NCBI RefSeq assembly: GCF_025716945.1
Contig: NZ_JAOVZT010000001.1
Span: 1 to 64,000, forward strand
Source: Geodermatophilus sp. YIM 151500
GTDB lineage: Bacteria; Actinomycetota; Actinomycetes; Mycobacteriales; Geodermatophilaceae
DNA: 64,000 bases
Direction: 5' to 3'
Shown here: in pieces, positions 42,293-48,537 of the stretch
Layout of the letters: each line of letters opens with the position of its first letter
Position numbering within the stretch: position 1 is the first letter of the stretch
Made by a program: the position numbers and the translations under genes
The notes under the pieces: model-generated
What the model was told of the DNA's origin: nothing
The model's database searches: none
Seen by the model: the letters and a program-made list of their open reading frames with translations, nothing else

Positions 42293-43135
42293 TCAGCGGG
42301 AGCGCGCCGCCGACGTCTCCGGTCCGGGCGCGGTCGCCGTGGGCGCGCCGAGCCCGCGGGAGACCGCCCGTGCCGCGGCCCGCACCGCGGGCTCGAGCGC
42401 TGCGGCGCTCGCCCTCCCCGCCGGGACGACGATGGACAGCGCCGCCACCACCTCCTCGCGGGGGCCGCGGACCGGCGCGGCCACCGAGACCACGGGGGCC
42501 GGCCGTCGCCGGTCGATGACGCCGACGCCGGTGCGCCGGATCTCGGCCAGCGCCCGGCGCAGCGCCGCCGGCTGCGGCGGTGGGTCGTCGGAGCGGCCGG
42601 CGACCTCCCCGGCCAGCACCCGCTCCTGCAGGTCGGCGGGGGCGAAGGCCAGCAGCAGCCGTCCGACGGCCGTCATGTGCAGGGGCAGCCGATCGCCGAC
42701 GCGGTACTGGACCGGGACGGCGGTCCGCGCCGACCGGCGTTCCACGAGCAGGGCCGCGTCGCCGTCCAGGACGGCGAGCAGCACGTGCTGGCGGGTCGCC
42801 TCGTACAGGTCGTCCAGGTAGGGCATCGCGACCTCGCGCAGGCCGAGCGTCCGCGGCGCCAGCGACGCGACCTCCCACAGCCGGAGCCCGACCACGTACC
42901 GCCCGTCCGCGCCCCGTTCCAGCGCACCCCAGGCGACCAGCCGCTCGGCGAGCCGGCGCGCCGTGCTCAGCGGCAGCGCGGCGCGGCGGCCCAGGTCGGA
43001 CAGCGTGAGTTCCCGGTGGCCGTCGGCGAAGGCGGCGAGCACGGCCAGGGCGCGGTCGACGACCGGCTCGCCGTGGGAGGGACGCCGGCCCCGGCGGGCG
43101 GTCGCCGGTGCGGGAGCGGGCTGCACCGGGGTCAT
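42293..43135 (-). CDS. IclR-family transcriptional regulator
   Basis: 280 residues. N-terminal winged helix at about 20-85 (VVDRALAVLAAFADGHRELTLSDLGRRAALPLSTARRLAERLVAWGALER), then the IclR effector domain (VASLAPRTLGLREVAMPYLDDLYEATRQHVLLAVLDGDAALLVERRSA, LPLHMTAVGRLLLAFAPADLQERVLAG, VVSVAAPVRGPREEVVAALSIVVP). Divergent from the MFS-hydroxylase-FAH-DUF3500 operon across 149 bases holding a palindrome, so it probably regulates that operon in response to an aromatic compound. ATG 43135; an upstream extension to 43312 overlaps the operator region and is unlikely. Confidence 0.9.
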   Translation of the reverse strand: MTPVQPAPAPATARRGRRPSHGEPVVDRALAVLAAFADGHRELTLSDLGRRAALPLSTARRLAERLVAWGALERGADGRYVVGLRLWEVASLAPRTLGLREVAMPYLDDLYEATRQHVLLAVLDGDAALLVERRSARTAVPVQYRVGDRLPLHMTAVGRLLLAFAPADLQERVLAGEVAGRSDDPPPQPAALRRALAEIRRTGVGVIDRRRPAPVVSVAAPVRGPREEVVAALSIVVPAGRASAAALEPAVRAAARAVSRGLGAPTATAPGPETSAARSR

Positions 43136-43284: not shown

Positions 43285-44613
43285 ATGACCCTCCCCGACG
43301 CGCCGCGCCCACCGACGCGTGCCGCCCACCTCGTCCCGCTGCTCTGCTGGCTGGCGCTGGTCGCCGACGGCTACGAGCTGTTCGCCTACGGGGCCACGGT
43401 CCCGGGCCTGCTCGCCGACCCCGGCTGGGCGGTGACCCCCGCCGGGGCCGGCGCCGTCGGCAGCCTCGCCCTGGGAGGCGTGCTGGCCGGCTCGCTGGTG
43501 GCCGGCACCCTCACCGACCTGCTGGGTCGCCGGCGCCTGTTCGTCCTGTCGATCAGCGTCTTCTCGCTGGCGATGTTCGCCTGCGCACTGGCGCCCTCGT
43601 TCGGCGTGTTCGCCACCTGCCGCCTCGTCGCCGGCCTCGGCATCGGCGGCCTGCTGCCCACCGCGGTGGCCCTCACCAGCGAGTTCGCCGCTCCCGGGCG
43701 CCGGTCGCGGATCATCGGCGCGGTGCTCACCGGGCCCCCGCTGGGCGGGTTGCTCGCCTCGGGGGCCGCGGTGGCGGTCGTGGCCGACGGCGGCTTCCGC
43801 TGGGTCTACGGGCTCGGCGTCCTGCCGCTGCTGCTGGTCCCGGTGGCGCTGCGGCTGCTCCCCGAATCCCCCGCGTTCCTGCGCGCCCGCGGCCGCACCG
43901 CGGAGGCCGACCGGATCGCCGCCCGCTTCGGCCTGCCGACCCCGTCCGCGGCGCCCGCGACCGCGGCCGGCCGCCGGTTCCCGGTCGCGGCGCTGTTCGC
44001 CGACGGCCGGGGGCCGGTCACCCTCGGGCTCTGGCTGGTCAACGTCTGCAGCCTGCTGGTCGTCTTCGGCGTCAGCACCTGGCTGCCGCAGATCATGCGC
44101 GGGGCCGGGTACGGGGTGAGCTCCGCGATCGGCTTCCTCCTGCTGTACAGCGCGGGCGCCATCGTCGGCACGCTGCTGGCCGCCGCGCTCGCCGAGCGGG
44201 TGGGCGCCAAGGCGATGGTGCTGGCCGGCTTCCTGTCGGCCGCCGCGGCGCTGGCGCTCATCGCCACCACGCCGCCGACGGGCCTGGTCGTGCTGCTGGT
44301 CGCCCTCGCCGGCTTCGGCGGGCTGGGCACCCAGAACATGGTCAACGACCACGTCGCCGGCTACTACCCGGCCGCGGCCCGGGCCACGGGCCTGGGCTGG
44401 GCGCTCGGCGTCGGCCGGATCGGCGCGATCGTCGGCCCGACCTACGGCGCGCTCTTCGTCGGCGCCGGCAGTGCCGTCGCGGCGGCCTCCCTCGCCTTCG
44501 CCGGGCCCGCCCTGGTCGGCGCGCTGGTGATGTCCCGGCTGCCGCGGCGCGACCGGACGGCGTCCGGCGACGTCCCGCAGGCCGAGCCCGCGCGGACGGG
44601 GCTCGCGGCGTGA
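43285..44613 (+). CDS. MFS transporter, aromatic acid:H+ symporter type
   Basis: 442 residues, 12 membrane segments. CWLALVADGYELFAYGATVPGLLAD carries the D-G-x-E-L-F-x-Y-G motif of the AAHS group (aromatic acid importers such as PcaK and BenK). Also LAGSLVAGTLTDLLGRRRLFVLSI, GGLLPTAVALTSEFAAPGRRS and LLPESPAFLRARGR, where P-E-S-P is typical of metabolite importers. ATG 43285 has GGAG upstream. Overlaps the hydroxylase gene by GTGA, so import and first oxidation of the same substrate are linked. Confidence 0.88.
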   Translation: MTLPDAPRPPTRAAHLVPLLCWLALVADGYELFAYGATVPGLLADPGWAVTPAGAGAVGSLALGGVLAGSLVAGTLTDLLGRRRLFVLSISVFSLAMFACALAPSFGVFATCRLVAGLGIGGLLPTAVALTSEFAAPGRRSRIIGAVLTGPPLGGLLASGAAVAVVADGGFRWVYGLGVLPLLLVPVALRLLPESPAFLRARGRTAEADRIAARFGLPTPSAAPATAAGRRFPVAALFADGRGPVTLGLWLVNVCSLLVVFGVSTWLPQIMRGAGYGVSSAIGFLLLYSAGAIVGTLLAAALAERVGAKAMVLAGFLSAAAALALIATTPPTGLVVLLVALAGFGGLGTQNMVNDHVAGYYPAAARATGLGWALGVGRIGAIVGPTYGALFVGAGSAVAAASLAFAGPALVGALVMSRLPRRDRTASGDVPQAEPARTGLAA

Positions 44614-46433
44614 CCGCGGCACGGACGGCCGCCGGGCGGCCGGGCAGCGCGGACGTGCCCGTCCTGGTGGTCGGCGGCGGGCCGGCAGGGCTCGCCGCGG
44701 CCCTGGAACTGGACCGGAACGGCGTGGCCAGCCTCGTCGTCGAGCCCCGCACCACCGTCGACCCGCTGCGGCCCCGGGCCAAGACGACCAACGCCCGCAC
44801 CATGACGCACCTGCGCCGGTGGGGCCTGGCCGACCGGCTGCGCGCCGCCGCCCCGCTGCCGGTGGACTGGGCCCAGGACGTCGTCTTCTGCTCGACCCTG
44901 CTCGGCCGCGAGGTCCGCCGCTTCGCGCACGCCTTCCAGCTGCACGACGCCCCGCAGGAGTGGGCGCCCGAGGTCGGCCAGCAGGTGCCGCAGCCGGTCA
45001 TCGAGGAGGTGCTGCGGGACGGCGTCCGCGCCTCCGCGCACGCCCGGCTGTGGACCGGTGCCCGCGTCACCCGCCTGCGGGAGGACGCCGACGGCGTCGA
45101 CGTCACCGTCGTCGACGACGCGGGGACCGAGCGCGCCGTCCGCGCCGACCTGGTGCTCGGCGCCGACGGCGGCTGGAGCGTGACCCGACCGGCGATCGGG
45201 GCGAGCTACCAGGGCTCGTGCGGCGAAAAGCCGAACCTCAGCATCCTGTTCCGGGCGCCGGGCCTGGCCGACCGGGTGCCGTTCGCCGGCGCCGTCCACC
45301 ACTGGGTGATGGCCCCCGGTGCGGCCGGCATCGTCGGGCGGCTGGACCTCGGCGACACCTGGTGGGCCATCGTCCAGGGCGTCGACGTGCGGACCGCCGA
45401 CGACGTCGACCCGGGGGCGCTCGTGCGCGCCCTCGTGGGCGGCCCGGTCGAGGTGGAGGTCATCGCCACCGATCCGTGGGTGGCCCGCATGCTGCTGGCC
45501 GACTCCTACGGCTCGGACCGGGTGCTGCTCGTCGGCGACGCCGCGCACCTGAACCCGCCGTGGGGCGGGCACGGCTTCAACACGTGCGTCGGCGACGCGG
45601 TCAACGTCGGCTGGAAGGCCGCCGCCGTGCTGCAGGGCTGGGGCGGGCCGGAGCTGCTGGCCAGCTACGAGGCCGAGCGCCGTCCGGTCGCCGCCCGGAC
45701 CATCGCCGACGCCGCGGCCAACGACCGGGCCCTGGCCTCCCGGTTCGCCGACCCGCGGCTCGGCGAGGACGGCCCCGAGGCCGAACTCGTGCGCACGGGG
45801 ACGGCCGCGGCGCTGCAGGTCAAGGAGAGCGAGTTCCACTCGCTGGGACTGGTGCTGGGCTACCAGTACGCCGGCTCCCCGGTGGTGGTCGACGACGGGA
45901 GCGCGGTGCCCGTGGACGACCCGGTCGCCTACCGCCCCTCCGCCCGCCCCGGTTGCCTGCTCCCCCACCGCTGGCTCACCGGCGGCCGGTCCGTCTACGA
46001 CCTGCTCGGCCCGGGCATCACCCTGCTGGGCCTCGACGGGGCGGACGTGTCAGCGGTGGAGGACGCCGCGGCCCGGCGGGGCGTGCCCCTGACCGTCGTG
46101 CGCCTCGGCGCCGGCGACACCGGGCCGGGCGGCCTTCCGCTGGAGGCGAGCTGGGGTGCCTCGCTGCTGCTGGTCCGCCCCGACCAGCACGTCGCCTGGC
46201 GGGGCACGGACGCCGCGGCCGCCGCCGCGGCCCTGGACCGGGTGTGCGGGTGGGTCCCGGTGCCGGCGGGCGCGACCGTCCACCGGCCCACCACGCCGGC
46301 GGACACTGCGGCCGACACCGCTGCAGACACCGCGGCGGACACGGCGGCCGACACGCAGGCCGCCACGGCGGCCGACACGGCGGCCGACACGGCGGCCGAC
46401 ACGGCGGCCGACACGGAAGGAGCGTTCGCATGA
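44610..46433 (+). CDS. FAD-dependent aromatic hydroxylase with DTAA repeat tail
   Basis: Flavoprotein monooxygenase of the PheA/TfdB and 3-(3-hydroxyphenyl)propionate hydroxylase (MhpA-like) group, inserting one oxygen into an aromatic ring using NAD(P)H. 607 residues: VLVVGGGPAGLAAALELDRNGV, DLVLGADGGWSVTRPAIG, and VLLVGDAAHLNPPWGGHGFNTCVGDAVNVGWKAAAVL. A C-terminal thioredoxin-like domain spans about 410-550. Unusually, the last 45 residues are a (D-T-A-A)n repeat encoded by 12-base units at about 46303-46415. GTG 44610 overlaps the MFS gene; the stop overlaps the FAH-family gene (ATGA). Confidence 0.88.
   Translation: MTAARTAAGRPGSADVPVLVVGGGPAGLAAALELDRNGVASLVVEPRTTVDPLRPRAKTTNARTMTHLRRWGLADRLRAAAPLPVDWAQDVVFCSTLLGREVRRFAHAFQLHDAPQEWAPEVGQQVPQPVIEEVLRDGVRASAHARLWTGARVTRLREDADGVDVTVVDDAGTERAVRADLVLGADGGWSVTRPAIGASYQGSCGEKPNLSILFRAPGLADRVPFAGAVHHWVMAPGAAGIVGRLDLGDTWWAIVQGVDVRTADDVDPGALVRALVGGPVEVEVIATDPWVARMLLADSYGSDRVLLVGDAAHLNPPWGGHGFNTCVGDAVNVGWKAAAVLQGWGGPELLASYEAERRPVAARTIADAAANDRALASRFADPRLGEDGPEAELVRTGTAAALQVKESEFHSLGLVLGYQYAGSPVVVDDGSAVPVDDPVAYRPSARPGCLLPHRWLTGGRSVYDLLGPGITLLGLDGADVSAVEDAAARRGVPLTVVRLGAGDTGPGGLPLEASWGASLLLVRPDQHVAWRGTDAAAAAAALDRVCGWVPVPAGATVHRPTTPADTAADTAADTAADTAADTQAATAADTAADTAADTAADTEGAFA
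46303..46415. repeat. 12-bp tandem repeat encoding the D-T-A-A tail of the hydroxylase
   Basis: About nine copies of GCGGCCGACACG with few substitutions, in frame at the 3' end of the hydroxylase gene and ending about 15 bases before the next start codon. Length variation between strains would change only the tail. Confidence 0.85.
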
Positions 46434-47284
46434 GGATCGTGGGCATCCGCCGGCCGGGCGGCCGGGGCGTGGAGGTGGCCGACCTGCGGGCCGACGGCGA
46501 GGTGGCCGTGCTCGGCGGCCTGGACGAGTTCTGGGCCGATCCCGCCGGCGCCCTGTCGCGGCCGGCCGCCGGTCCGGTGCTGCCGGTCGCGTCGGTGGAG
46601 CTCGTCCCGCCGGTGCTCCCCGACGCCCGGGTGGTCTGCATCGGGCTCAACTACCTGAAGCACGTCGCCGAGGGGTCGTTCCGGGAGCAGGAGCTGCCCG
46701 AGCACCCGACCCTGTTCGCGCGGTGGACGCGGTCGCTGACCGTCGGCGGCGCGGAGGTGCCGGTGCCGTCCGGGGAGGACGGCCTGGACTGGGAGGGCGA
46801 GGTCGTCGCGTGGGTGGGCGCACCGCTCGTGGACGCCGACCCCGACGCGGCGCTCGCCGCGGTCGTCGGCTACTCGACGTTCAACGACCTCACCTCCCGG
46901 CGGGCGCAGAAGCTCACCTCGCAGTGGATCCTCGGCAAGAACGGCGACAACTCCGGTCCCCTCGGGCCGATGGTCCCGGCCGGCGCGGTGGGCGACCTGC
47001 GCGACGGGCTGCGGGTGCGGACGCGGGTCAACGGAGAGACCGTCCAGGACGGTCGCACCGACGAGATGGTCTACACCGTCGGCGACACCCTCTCGCTGGT
47101 CTCGCACACCTTCACCCTGCGCCCGGGCGACCTGCTGGCCACCGGCACCCCGTCGGGCGTCGGCTACGCCCGGACGCCGCCGTGGCTGCTGCAGCCCGGC
47201 GACGTCGTCGAGGTGGAGGTCGAGCGGCTGGGCGTCCTCCGCAACCCGATCGTCGGCAACGACGCCCGCCGGAAGGGGGCCTGA
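46430..47284 (+). CDS. Fumarylacetoacetate hydrolase family protein
   Basis: 284 residues, FAH superfamily: hydrolases and decarboxylases of 2-oxo dicarboxylates in aromatic catabolism (acylpyruvase, HpcG/HpaG-like, MhpD-like roles). VVCIGLNYLKHVAEGSFREQELPEHPTLFARW and the metal-binding Glu residues of LDWEGEVVAWVG are seen, with YSTFNDLTSRRAQKLTSQWILGKNGDNSGPLGPMV and DLLATGTPSGVGYARTPPWLLQPGDVVEVEVE. ATG 46430 overlaps the hydroxylase stop. It would act after ring cleavage, but no ring-cleavage dioxygenase is present in this operon. Confidence 0.9.
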   Translation: MRIVGIRRPGGRGVEVADLRADGEVAVLGGLDEFWADPAGALSRPAAGPVLPVASVELVPPVLPDARVVCIGLNYLKHVAEGSFREQELPEHPTLFARWTRSLTVGGAEVPVPSGEDGLDWEGEVVAWVGAPLVDADPDAALAAVVGYSTFNDLTSRRAQKLTSQWILGKNGDNSGPLGPMVPAGAVGDLRDGLRVRTRVNGETVQDGRTDEMVYTVGDTLSLVSHTFTLRPGDLLATGTPSGVGYARTPPWLLQPGDVVEVEVERLGVLRNPIVGNDARRKGA

Positions 47285-47286
47285 CC

Positions 47287-48537
47287 GTGCCCGGCGAGTT
47301 CCGGCGGTACCTGTTCCCGCACGACCACCCGCGGCTGGCCGGCGTCCGGGGGCTGGACCCGTACGCCTACCGCGAGCACGCCCGGACGCCGGGCACGTTC
47401 ACCGGCGGCCTGGTGGAGGGTTGGACGCCGCTCTACCGCGACGAGTTCCGCGGCGTCACCGAGGACGGCACGCTGCGCGCGGGCCTGCACCCCCTGGAGC
47501 CGGCGCGGCCGGGCGAGGAGGCGCCGGTGCCCGCGATGGTGGCCGCCGCGCGGGACCTCCTCTCGGCGCTGTCCGAGGAGGACCGGGCGCGGGTGGCCTT
47601 TCCCGTCGACGCCGTCGAGTGGCAGACCTGGGCGAACCCGGAGTTCATGCAGTTCGACACCGGCCTGCGGCTGGAGTTCCAGCCGTCCGAGGTGCGGGAG
47701 CGGGCGCTGGCGCTGGTGCACGCCTCGCTGTCGCCCGAGGGGTACGACCTGGCGCACGCGATGATGCTGGTCAACGGCTTCCTCGGCGAGGTCGTCGGCC
47801 TGGAGACGGTCCTCAACGAGTGGAGCTACAACCTCGCCCTCTACGGCGAGCCGCACGAGCGCGCGCCGTGGGGGTGGCAGCTCTACGGCCACCACTGCGC
47901 GCTGAACTGCCTGGTGGTCGACGGCCGGATGGTGCTCTCCCCCGTCTTCCTGGGTGCCGAGCCCGACGAGATCGACGACGGGCCGCACGCCGGCCTGGCC
48001 GGGTTGTTCGCCGACCGGATCGAGCTGGGCACCGCGCTGATGGCGGCGCTGCCGGAGGAGCAGCGGCGGGCCGCCACCGTCTACGAGCGGATGGTCGACC
48101 CGGCCATGCCGCCCGGCCGGCTGCACCCGGGCGACGAGCGGCACCTCGCCGGGGCGTTCCAGGACAACCGGGTCATCCCGGTCGAGGGCGTCCCGGTCGC
48201 CGGGATGCCGGCCGAGGCCCAGCGCCTCTGCCTGGCCCTCGTCGAGGCGTTCGTGCGGCTGCTGCCCGAGGGACCGCGGCGGGCGCGGCTGCGGGAGGTG
48301 CAGGAGCACTGGGACGACACGTGGTTCTCGTGGATCGGCGGCTCGGAGCCCGGGGACGTCTTCTACCTCCGGATCCAGTCGCCGGTGGTCGTCGCCGAGC
48401 TCGACCACCACTGCGGCGTCTTCCTCGACTACGACACCCCGCAGCCGTTCCACGTGCACACCGTGCTGCGCACGCCGCACGGCAACGACTACGGCCGCGC
48501 CTGGGTGCGCCAGTGGCAGGCCGGACGGGCGACCTGA
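47287..48537 (+). CDS. DUF3500 family protein
   Basis: 416 residues, no signal peptide or membrane segment. DUF3500 features: MVAAARDLLSALSEEDRARVAFPVDAVEWQTWANPEFMQFDTGLRLE, MMLVNGFLGEVVGLETVLNEWSYNLALYG, WGWQLYGHHCALNCLVVDGRMVLSPVFLGAEPDEI and IQSPVVVAELDHHCGVFLDYDTPQPFHVHTVLRTPHGNDYG. The many conserved His, Asp and Glu residues suggest a metal or hydrolytic site, but the function is unestablished. GTG 47287 is 2 bases after the FAH-family stop and has GGAAGGGGG upstream. Last gene of the IclR-linked operon, followed by a strong terminator. Confidence 0.85.
   Translation: MPGEFRRYLFPHDHPRLAGVRGLDPYAYREHARTPGTFTGGLVEGWTPLYRDEFRGVTEDGTLRAGLHPLEPARPGEEAPVPAMVAAARDLLSALSEEDRARVAFPVDAVEWQTWANPEFMQFDTGLRLEFQPSEVRERALALVHASLSPEGYDLAHAMMLVNGFLGEVVGLETVLNEWSYNLALYGEPHERAPWGWQLYGHHCALNCLVVDGRMVLSPVFLGAEPDEIDDGPHAGLAGLFADRIELGTALMAALPEEQRRAATVYERMVDPAMPPGRLHPGDERHLAGAFQDNRVIPVEGVPVAGMPAEAQRLCLALVEAFVRLLPEGPRRARLREVQEHWDDTWFSWIGGSEPGDVFYLRIQSPVVVAELDHHCGVFLDYDTPQPFHVHTVLRTPHGNDYGRAWVRQWQAGRAT

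Follow-up and report, generated by a model that had tools for sequence, protein, structure and literature searches.

The quercetinases QueD and QdoI/YxaG open ring C of quercetin. The depside they release would be split by an esterase into the B-ring acid and 2,4,6-trihydroxybenzoate. No enzyme for the further fate of the phloroglucinol-type ring released in this quercetinase-type flavonol breakdown was found in the literature searched. According to PMC12388069, fungi convert gallate to 1,2,3,5-tetrahydroxybenzene with an FAD monooxygenase. The paper also cites a proposal that the DUF3500 protein AN10530 of A. nidulans, as a putative dioxygenase, converts this compound to 5-hydroxydienelactone (Martins et al. 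2024, cited in PMC12388069). Furthermore, A. niger still grew on gallate after deletion of 17 ring-cleavage genes of recognised types (PMC10512348), and a 2026 paper describes the 1,2,3,5-tetrahydroxybenzene pathway as seemingly restricted to fungi. No function for a bacterial DUF3500 member was found in the open-access literature that names DUF3500.

Operon architecture and encoded enzymes

The window, meaning the whole 64-kb stretch of DNA analysed, contained the following features:

42293..43135, minus strand: IclR-family regulator, divergent; PF01614 (IclR_C), 8.7e-30; start at about 43135 by the gene caller
43285..44613, plus strand: MFS transporter, aromatic acid/H+ symport-like; PF07690 (MFS_1), 3.1e-36
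44610..46433, plus strand: class A flavoprotein aromatic hydroxylase (FMO), GTG start; PF01494, 1.3e-65, and PF21274, 3.2e-13
46292..46416, plus strand: tandem repeat with a 12-bp unit, 10.4 copies, in frame and closing the FMO gene at its 3' end (Tandem Repeats Finder)
46430..47284, plus strand: FAH-superfamily hydrolase; PF01557 (FAA_hydrolase), 8.6e-64
47287..48537, plus strand: DUF3500 protein, GTG start; PF12006, 1.4e-101

The preliminary description of this DNA had proposed a four-gene operon MFS-FMO-FAH-DUF3500 with a divergent IclR gene, and this was confirmed by the reading frames, the gene overlaps and Pfam, which bore out all five families; the coordinates in that description were also correct. 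In the reading frames, the MFS and FMO genes and the FMO and FAH genes overlapped by four bases (GTGA and ATGA, respectively), and the FAH and DUF3500 genes were separated by a 2-base gap. The IclR and MFS starts were 149 bases apart by the gene caller. A promoter and terminator scan found nothing. The IclR protein was closest to the PcaR/PcaU/PobR-type models (TIGR02431, 5.6e-35, below cut-off), and the MFS protein matched TIGR00895 with 2.7e-76, also below cut-off. The FMO possessed the FAD_binding_3 (PF01494, 1e-65) and Rng_hyd_C (PF21274, 3e-13) domains, and matched NF004780 with 614 bits, above cut-off, and RebC with 3e-74. Past the last recognised domain, the tandem repeat added a Thr-Ala-Ala-Asp-type C-terminal tail.

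The FAH protein belonged to PF01557 and carried the HxxE dyad and the acidic metal-ligand motif of that family; by known FAH enzymes, we take these residues to be the dyad and the metal ligands. The NY..H..E and acidic motifs were present in 116 of the 119 FAH cluster members. The protein matched the L-2,4-diketo-3-deoxyrhamnonate hydrolase 8gsr with 6.4e-37. It shares with the acylpyruvases and the 8gsr hydrolase the sequence family, the HxxE and acidic motifs and the 2,4-diketo acid type of substrate, although the substrate in the present case is a predicted one. The FAH protein may be an acylpyruvase-type C-C hydrolase acting on 2,4-dioxoadipate. Pyruvate and malonate would be the expected products because its sequence is close to such 2,4-diketo acid hydrolases and both motifs are retained.

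The preliminary description had also noted the absence of a known ring-cleavage enzyme, and the blast search of the 64-kb window bore this out. Relatives of intradiol dioxygenases, LigB, catechol-2,3-dioxygenase and quercetinases were not found with a reference set of about 33 proteins, all drawn from this bacterial family, which very distant dioxygenases could escape. A hidden known dioxygenase in the window was rejected on this result. The single weak intradiol match in the window fell within the IclR gene; the matches to the reference intradiol_L209, and those to other intradiol references at IclR genes, were discarded because they were sited on IclR genes.

Structure and conserved residues of the DUF3500 protein

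The DUF3500 protein matched PF12006 over its full length with 340 bits, compared with a gathering cut-off of 27.2. Among 29 diverse members, H202, H203, E371, H389, H391 and R395 were invariant, and D373 was nearly so. The conserved His, Glu and Asp positions look like a putative metal site. The AlphaFold2 model, built from 58 sequences, had a mean pLDDT of 87, and its sole significant PDB match in Foldseek was 9x86 (Amc20/ApmL), titled a dehydratase. Neither Pfam nor Foldseek matched the protein to intradiol, LigB, type I extradiol or cupin enzymes. Because the conserved His and Glu residues are kept in Amc20, they are no proof of oxygenase chemistry.

DUF3500 might instead open the ring without O2, as a hydrolase, hydratase or dehydratase acting on a keto tautomer or a quinone, with FAH splitting the diketo product. 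Rings hydroxylated at positions 1, 3 and 5 have cyclic 1,3-diketones as tautomers, and hydrolases able to open such diketones are known. The title of 9x86 and the lack of a known dioxygenase among the fold matches also point this way. However, the word dehydratase comes from the PDB title, and the fungal DUF3500 protein is described in PMC12388069 as a putative dioxygenase yielding a dienelactone. We consider opening without O2 unlikely.

The preliminary description had suggested DUF3500 as the possible source of a so far unrecognised ring-opening or hydrolytic step. The FAH and hydroxylase context, the rarity of dioxygenases near DUF3500 genes and the fungal proposal speak for ring opening; given the title of the solved relative, its chemistry may be other than that of an oxygenase. 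Ring opening is the best-supported reading of DUF3500 and, in our judgement, a fairly probable one. The hydroquinone, gentisate and catechol substrates put forward earlier found no support; flavonol A-rings degraded through 1,2,3,5-tetrahydroxybenzene agree better with the context.

Gene neighbourhoods of DUF3500 in actinobacteria

DUF3500 loci of actinobacteria were scanned with one genome per species, and the best 80 of 244 were kept. They came from Modestobacter, Geodermatophilus, Blastococcus, Arthrobacter, Brevibacterium, Streptomyces, Nonomuraea, Amycolatopsis, Rhodococcoides and others. A second set comprised 115 Geodermatophilaceae genomes (including Blastococcus, Modestobacter, Geodermatophilus and Klenkia) with 60 DUF3500 neighbourhoods, in which genes were called by a codon-usage script and which are partly the same loci as in the first set. 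DUF3500 was found in 58 of these 115 genomes, compared with 26 of 396 sampled phylum-wide.

Of the best 80 of 244 loci, 76 had FAH no more than 8 kb from DUF3500, and in 67 the distance was at most 1 kb. Other genes within 8 kb in the same 80 encoded FMO (44), a GntR/FCD regulator (40), an esterase-like hydrolase (38), monocupin QueD (20), GH1 (19), bicupin QdoI (16), class III CoA-transferase (13), an AccA/AccD-like protein (11) and GH78 (8). A quercetinase of either type was present in about 35 of these best 80 of 244 loci, with at least one locus matching both queries. FMO, hydrolase and FAH together accompanied QueD in 20 of 20 loci and QdoI in 13 of 16. The monocupin matched the solved quercetinase QueD (5fli) with 1.7e-39, and the Arthrobacter/Brevibacterium bicupin matched the Bacillus quercetin 2,3-dioxygenase (2h0v) with 8e-62; thus two quercetinase subtypes are linked with one and the same set of downstream genes.

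The clade to which the DUF3500 protein of the window belongs showed the conserved order cupin, alpha/beta hydrolase (BD-FAE family), FAH, DUF3500, FMO and GH1 glycosidase. Several Arthrobacter/Pseudarthrobacter loci held rhamnosidase, hydrolases, FAH, FMO and DUF3500, with the quercetinase gene convergent. In one Klenkia genome, QueD, hydrolase, FMO and GH1 formed one operon and FAH-DUF3500 stood at a separate place, a split that is predicted by the pathway order. The roughly 35 quercetinase-bearing loci, usually with hydrolase and FMO and some with glycosidases, look like flavonol catabolism, in which the hydrolases may act as esterases on the depside. FAH and DUF3500 made up the minimal recurring unit, which a GntR gene often accompanied. 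In 24 of the best 80 of 244 loci, no match to the hydroxylase, quercetinase or hydrolase was present up to 8 kb from this pair, which counts against the flavonol model.

The pairing was also evident within the family. The DUF3500 clade of the window occurred in 34 of the 115 genomes (in G098 as a contig-end fragment), all of which had the FAH ortholog; the ortholog (at least 73% identity) occurred in 36. The co-occurrence was far above chance (Fisher p about 4e-27 for 115 genomes, a statistic that ignores relatedness). The exceptions were G033, with an FAH ortholog and no DUF3500, and G080, with a divergent DUF3500 beside FAH. QueD was found in 29 of the 115 genomes, and 28 of these, all except G081, also had DUF3500 (Fisher p about 8e-20, likewise ignoring relatedness). 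In the control of 20 loci with divergent DUF3500 paralogs, FAH was present in 2 and quercetinase in none.

A divergent lineage with 33-39% identity (L240 and L241) was still accompanied by FAH, an MhpA-like FAD hydroxylase and a small cupin, and L241 also had a gene with a flavin reductase domain; the retained FAH and hydroxylase speak for the proposed route. Two further divergent DUF3500 genes in one genome (L002 and L003, on G000 C33 and C22) had no FAH neighbour found, and close to that of L003 were genes for a cyclase-family-like and an SDR protein.

Quercetinases aside, only about 11 of the best 80 of 244 loci had a match to a recognised ring-cleaving family at a distance of up to about 10 kb; the types varied, and all lay outside the core gene set. 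A dioxygenase was therefore not seen as a constant member of these loci, and a check of whether all DUF3500 operons also encode one gave a negative answer. Protocatechuate 3,4-dioxygenase-like genes stood 4-5 kb from DUF3500 in L179, L181 and L178 (Brevibacterium and Modestobacter muralis), and PcaGH near some loci of these genera fits the use of the B-ring acid, protocatechuate, from a flavonol.

These data also bear on the possibility that DUF3500 has an accessory function once the ring is open, as a dehydratase, isomerase or lactonase, with cleavage by a dioxygenase encoded elsewhere. The genome of the window has seven intradiol-type matches elsewhere, and a gene for a cupin of only about 100-115 aa immediately precedes DUF3500 in three loci (L177:8730-9065, L240:7205-7510 and L241:10336-10680), where it could be an accessory or alternative ring-cleaving dioxygenase. 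Nevertheless, no recurrent neighbour in the best 80 of 244 loci was a canonical ring-cleaving dioxygenase, across many genera there was almost no DUF3500 without its FAH partner, and the A. niger deletion strain grew on gallate (PMC10512348). An accessory role is judged improbable.

The proposed route and comparison with known systems

From which genes are present, how they are ordered, how they co-occur and to which families they belong, we regard it as reasonably likely that the operon forms the lower part of an aerobic route for the phloroglucinol-type A-ring of flavonols, with the substrates, products and use of O2 predicted as follows. The MFS protein would import an aromatic acid, most likely 2,4,6-trihydroxybenzoate; gallate would lead to the same next compound. 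The FMO would convert 2,4,6-trihydroxybenzoate to 1,2,3,5-tetrahydroxybenzene by oxidative decarboxylation, and a single hydroxylation of phloroglucinol would be an alternative entry. DUF3500 would open 1,2,3,5-tetrahydroxybenzene, most likely with O2 between neighbouring hydroxyls, to 2,4-dioxoadipate or a lactone, and FAH would cleave 2,4-dioxoadipate, a 2,4-diketo acid, into pyruvate and malonate. In its details, with O2-dependent cleavage to 2,4-dioxoadipate, this route is held with less confidence than the ring-opening role and is offered tentatively. Relatives with quercetinase, esterase and glycosidases would start from flavonol glycosides.

Class III CoA-transferase and AccA/AccD-like genes near DUF3500 are expected if malonate is released. 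The two adjoined in seven loci (L095, L146, L147, L167, L191, L195 and L200), and the pair is possibly a branch from malonate to acetyl-CoA. These genes leave the ring-opening chemistry undecided because hydrolytic opening could also release malonate.

In the window organism, a genome-wide QueD search found no close relative of the monocupin; its flavonol link is therefore drawn from relatives. As the importer is present and a close QueD is not, the organism probably obtains the aromatic acid from its surroundings. The operon could also degrade an unrelated aromatic acid, so that the flavonol link of the relatives would not be transferable to it. The result of the QueD search, the breadth of the hydroxylase subfamily and the FAH orthologs found without DUF3500 are consistent with this. 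However, the MFS, FMO and FAH proteins of the window were 82-86% identical to their counterparts in L079, which has the same MFS-FMO-FAH-DUF3500 order with quercetinase and hydrolase genes directly upstream, and an unrelated acid is considered unlikely. Under the flavonol A-ring model, the prediction specifies substrate, product and partner enzymes, and ring opening is the only unassigned step in the flavonol route.

If DUF3500 opens the ring, the family would gain a function and a new ring-opening fold. We give about even chances to the broader proposal that DUF3500 represents a class of ring-opening enzymes with a new structure and that DUF3500-FAH is a widespread actinobacterial module leading through tetrahydroxybenzene to pyruvate and malonate. 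If so, a seemingly fungal-only pathway would extend to bacteria through this module.

Compared with known proteins, DUF3500 has the same fold and family as ApmL/Amc20 of amipurimycin biosynthesis (9x86; Foldseek 1.5e-18, TM 0.85 by target), in which the GHH, E, D and H-x-H residues are kept. The two differ in that identity in the structural match is 24%, the chain of ApmL/Amc20 has 297 residues against 416, and its context is biosynthetic, with the dehydratase assignment given by the PDB title. The quercetinases QueD (5fli) and QdoI/YxaG (2h0v) adjoin DUF3500 in relatives, but they are cupins, unrelated to DUF3500 in sequence, and are missing from the window operon. In the naringenin fde cluster of Herbaspirillum and the isoflavone ifc cluster of Variovorax, an FAD hydroxylase likewise precedes opening of the flavonoid A-ring; unlike the present operon, they employ the glyoxalase-type dioxygenase FdeC, which acts on the flavonoid itself, rather than DUF3500 (PMC11069340). 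The fungal AN10530 pathway, as described in PMC12388069 and PMC13094099, shares with the operon the DUF3500 domain, the predicted central intermediate and the absence of a recognised dioxygenase; the Pfam-assigned FAD aromatic hydroxylase of the operon would be a putative counterpart of its FAD-dependent decarboxylating monooxygenase. In contrast to the fungal pathway described there, the bacterial operon includes FAH, its relatives add quercetinase, esterase and glycosidases, and the entry would be a flavonol A-ring in bacteria rather than gallate as in fungi.
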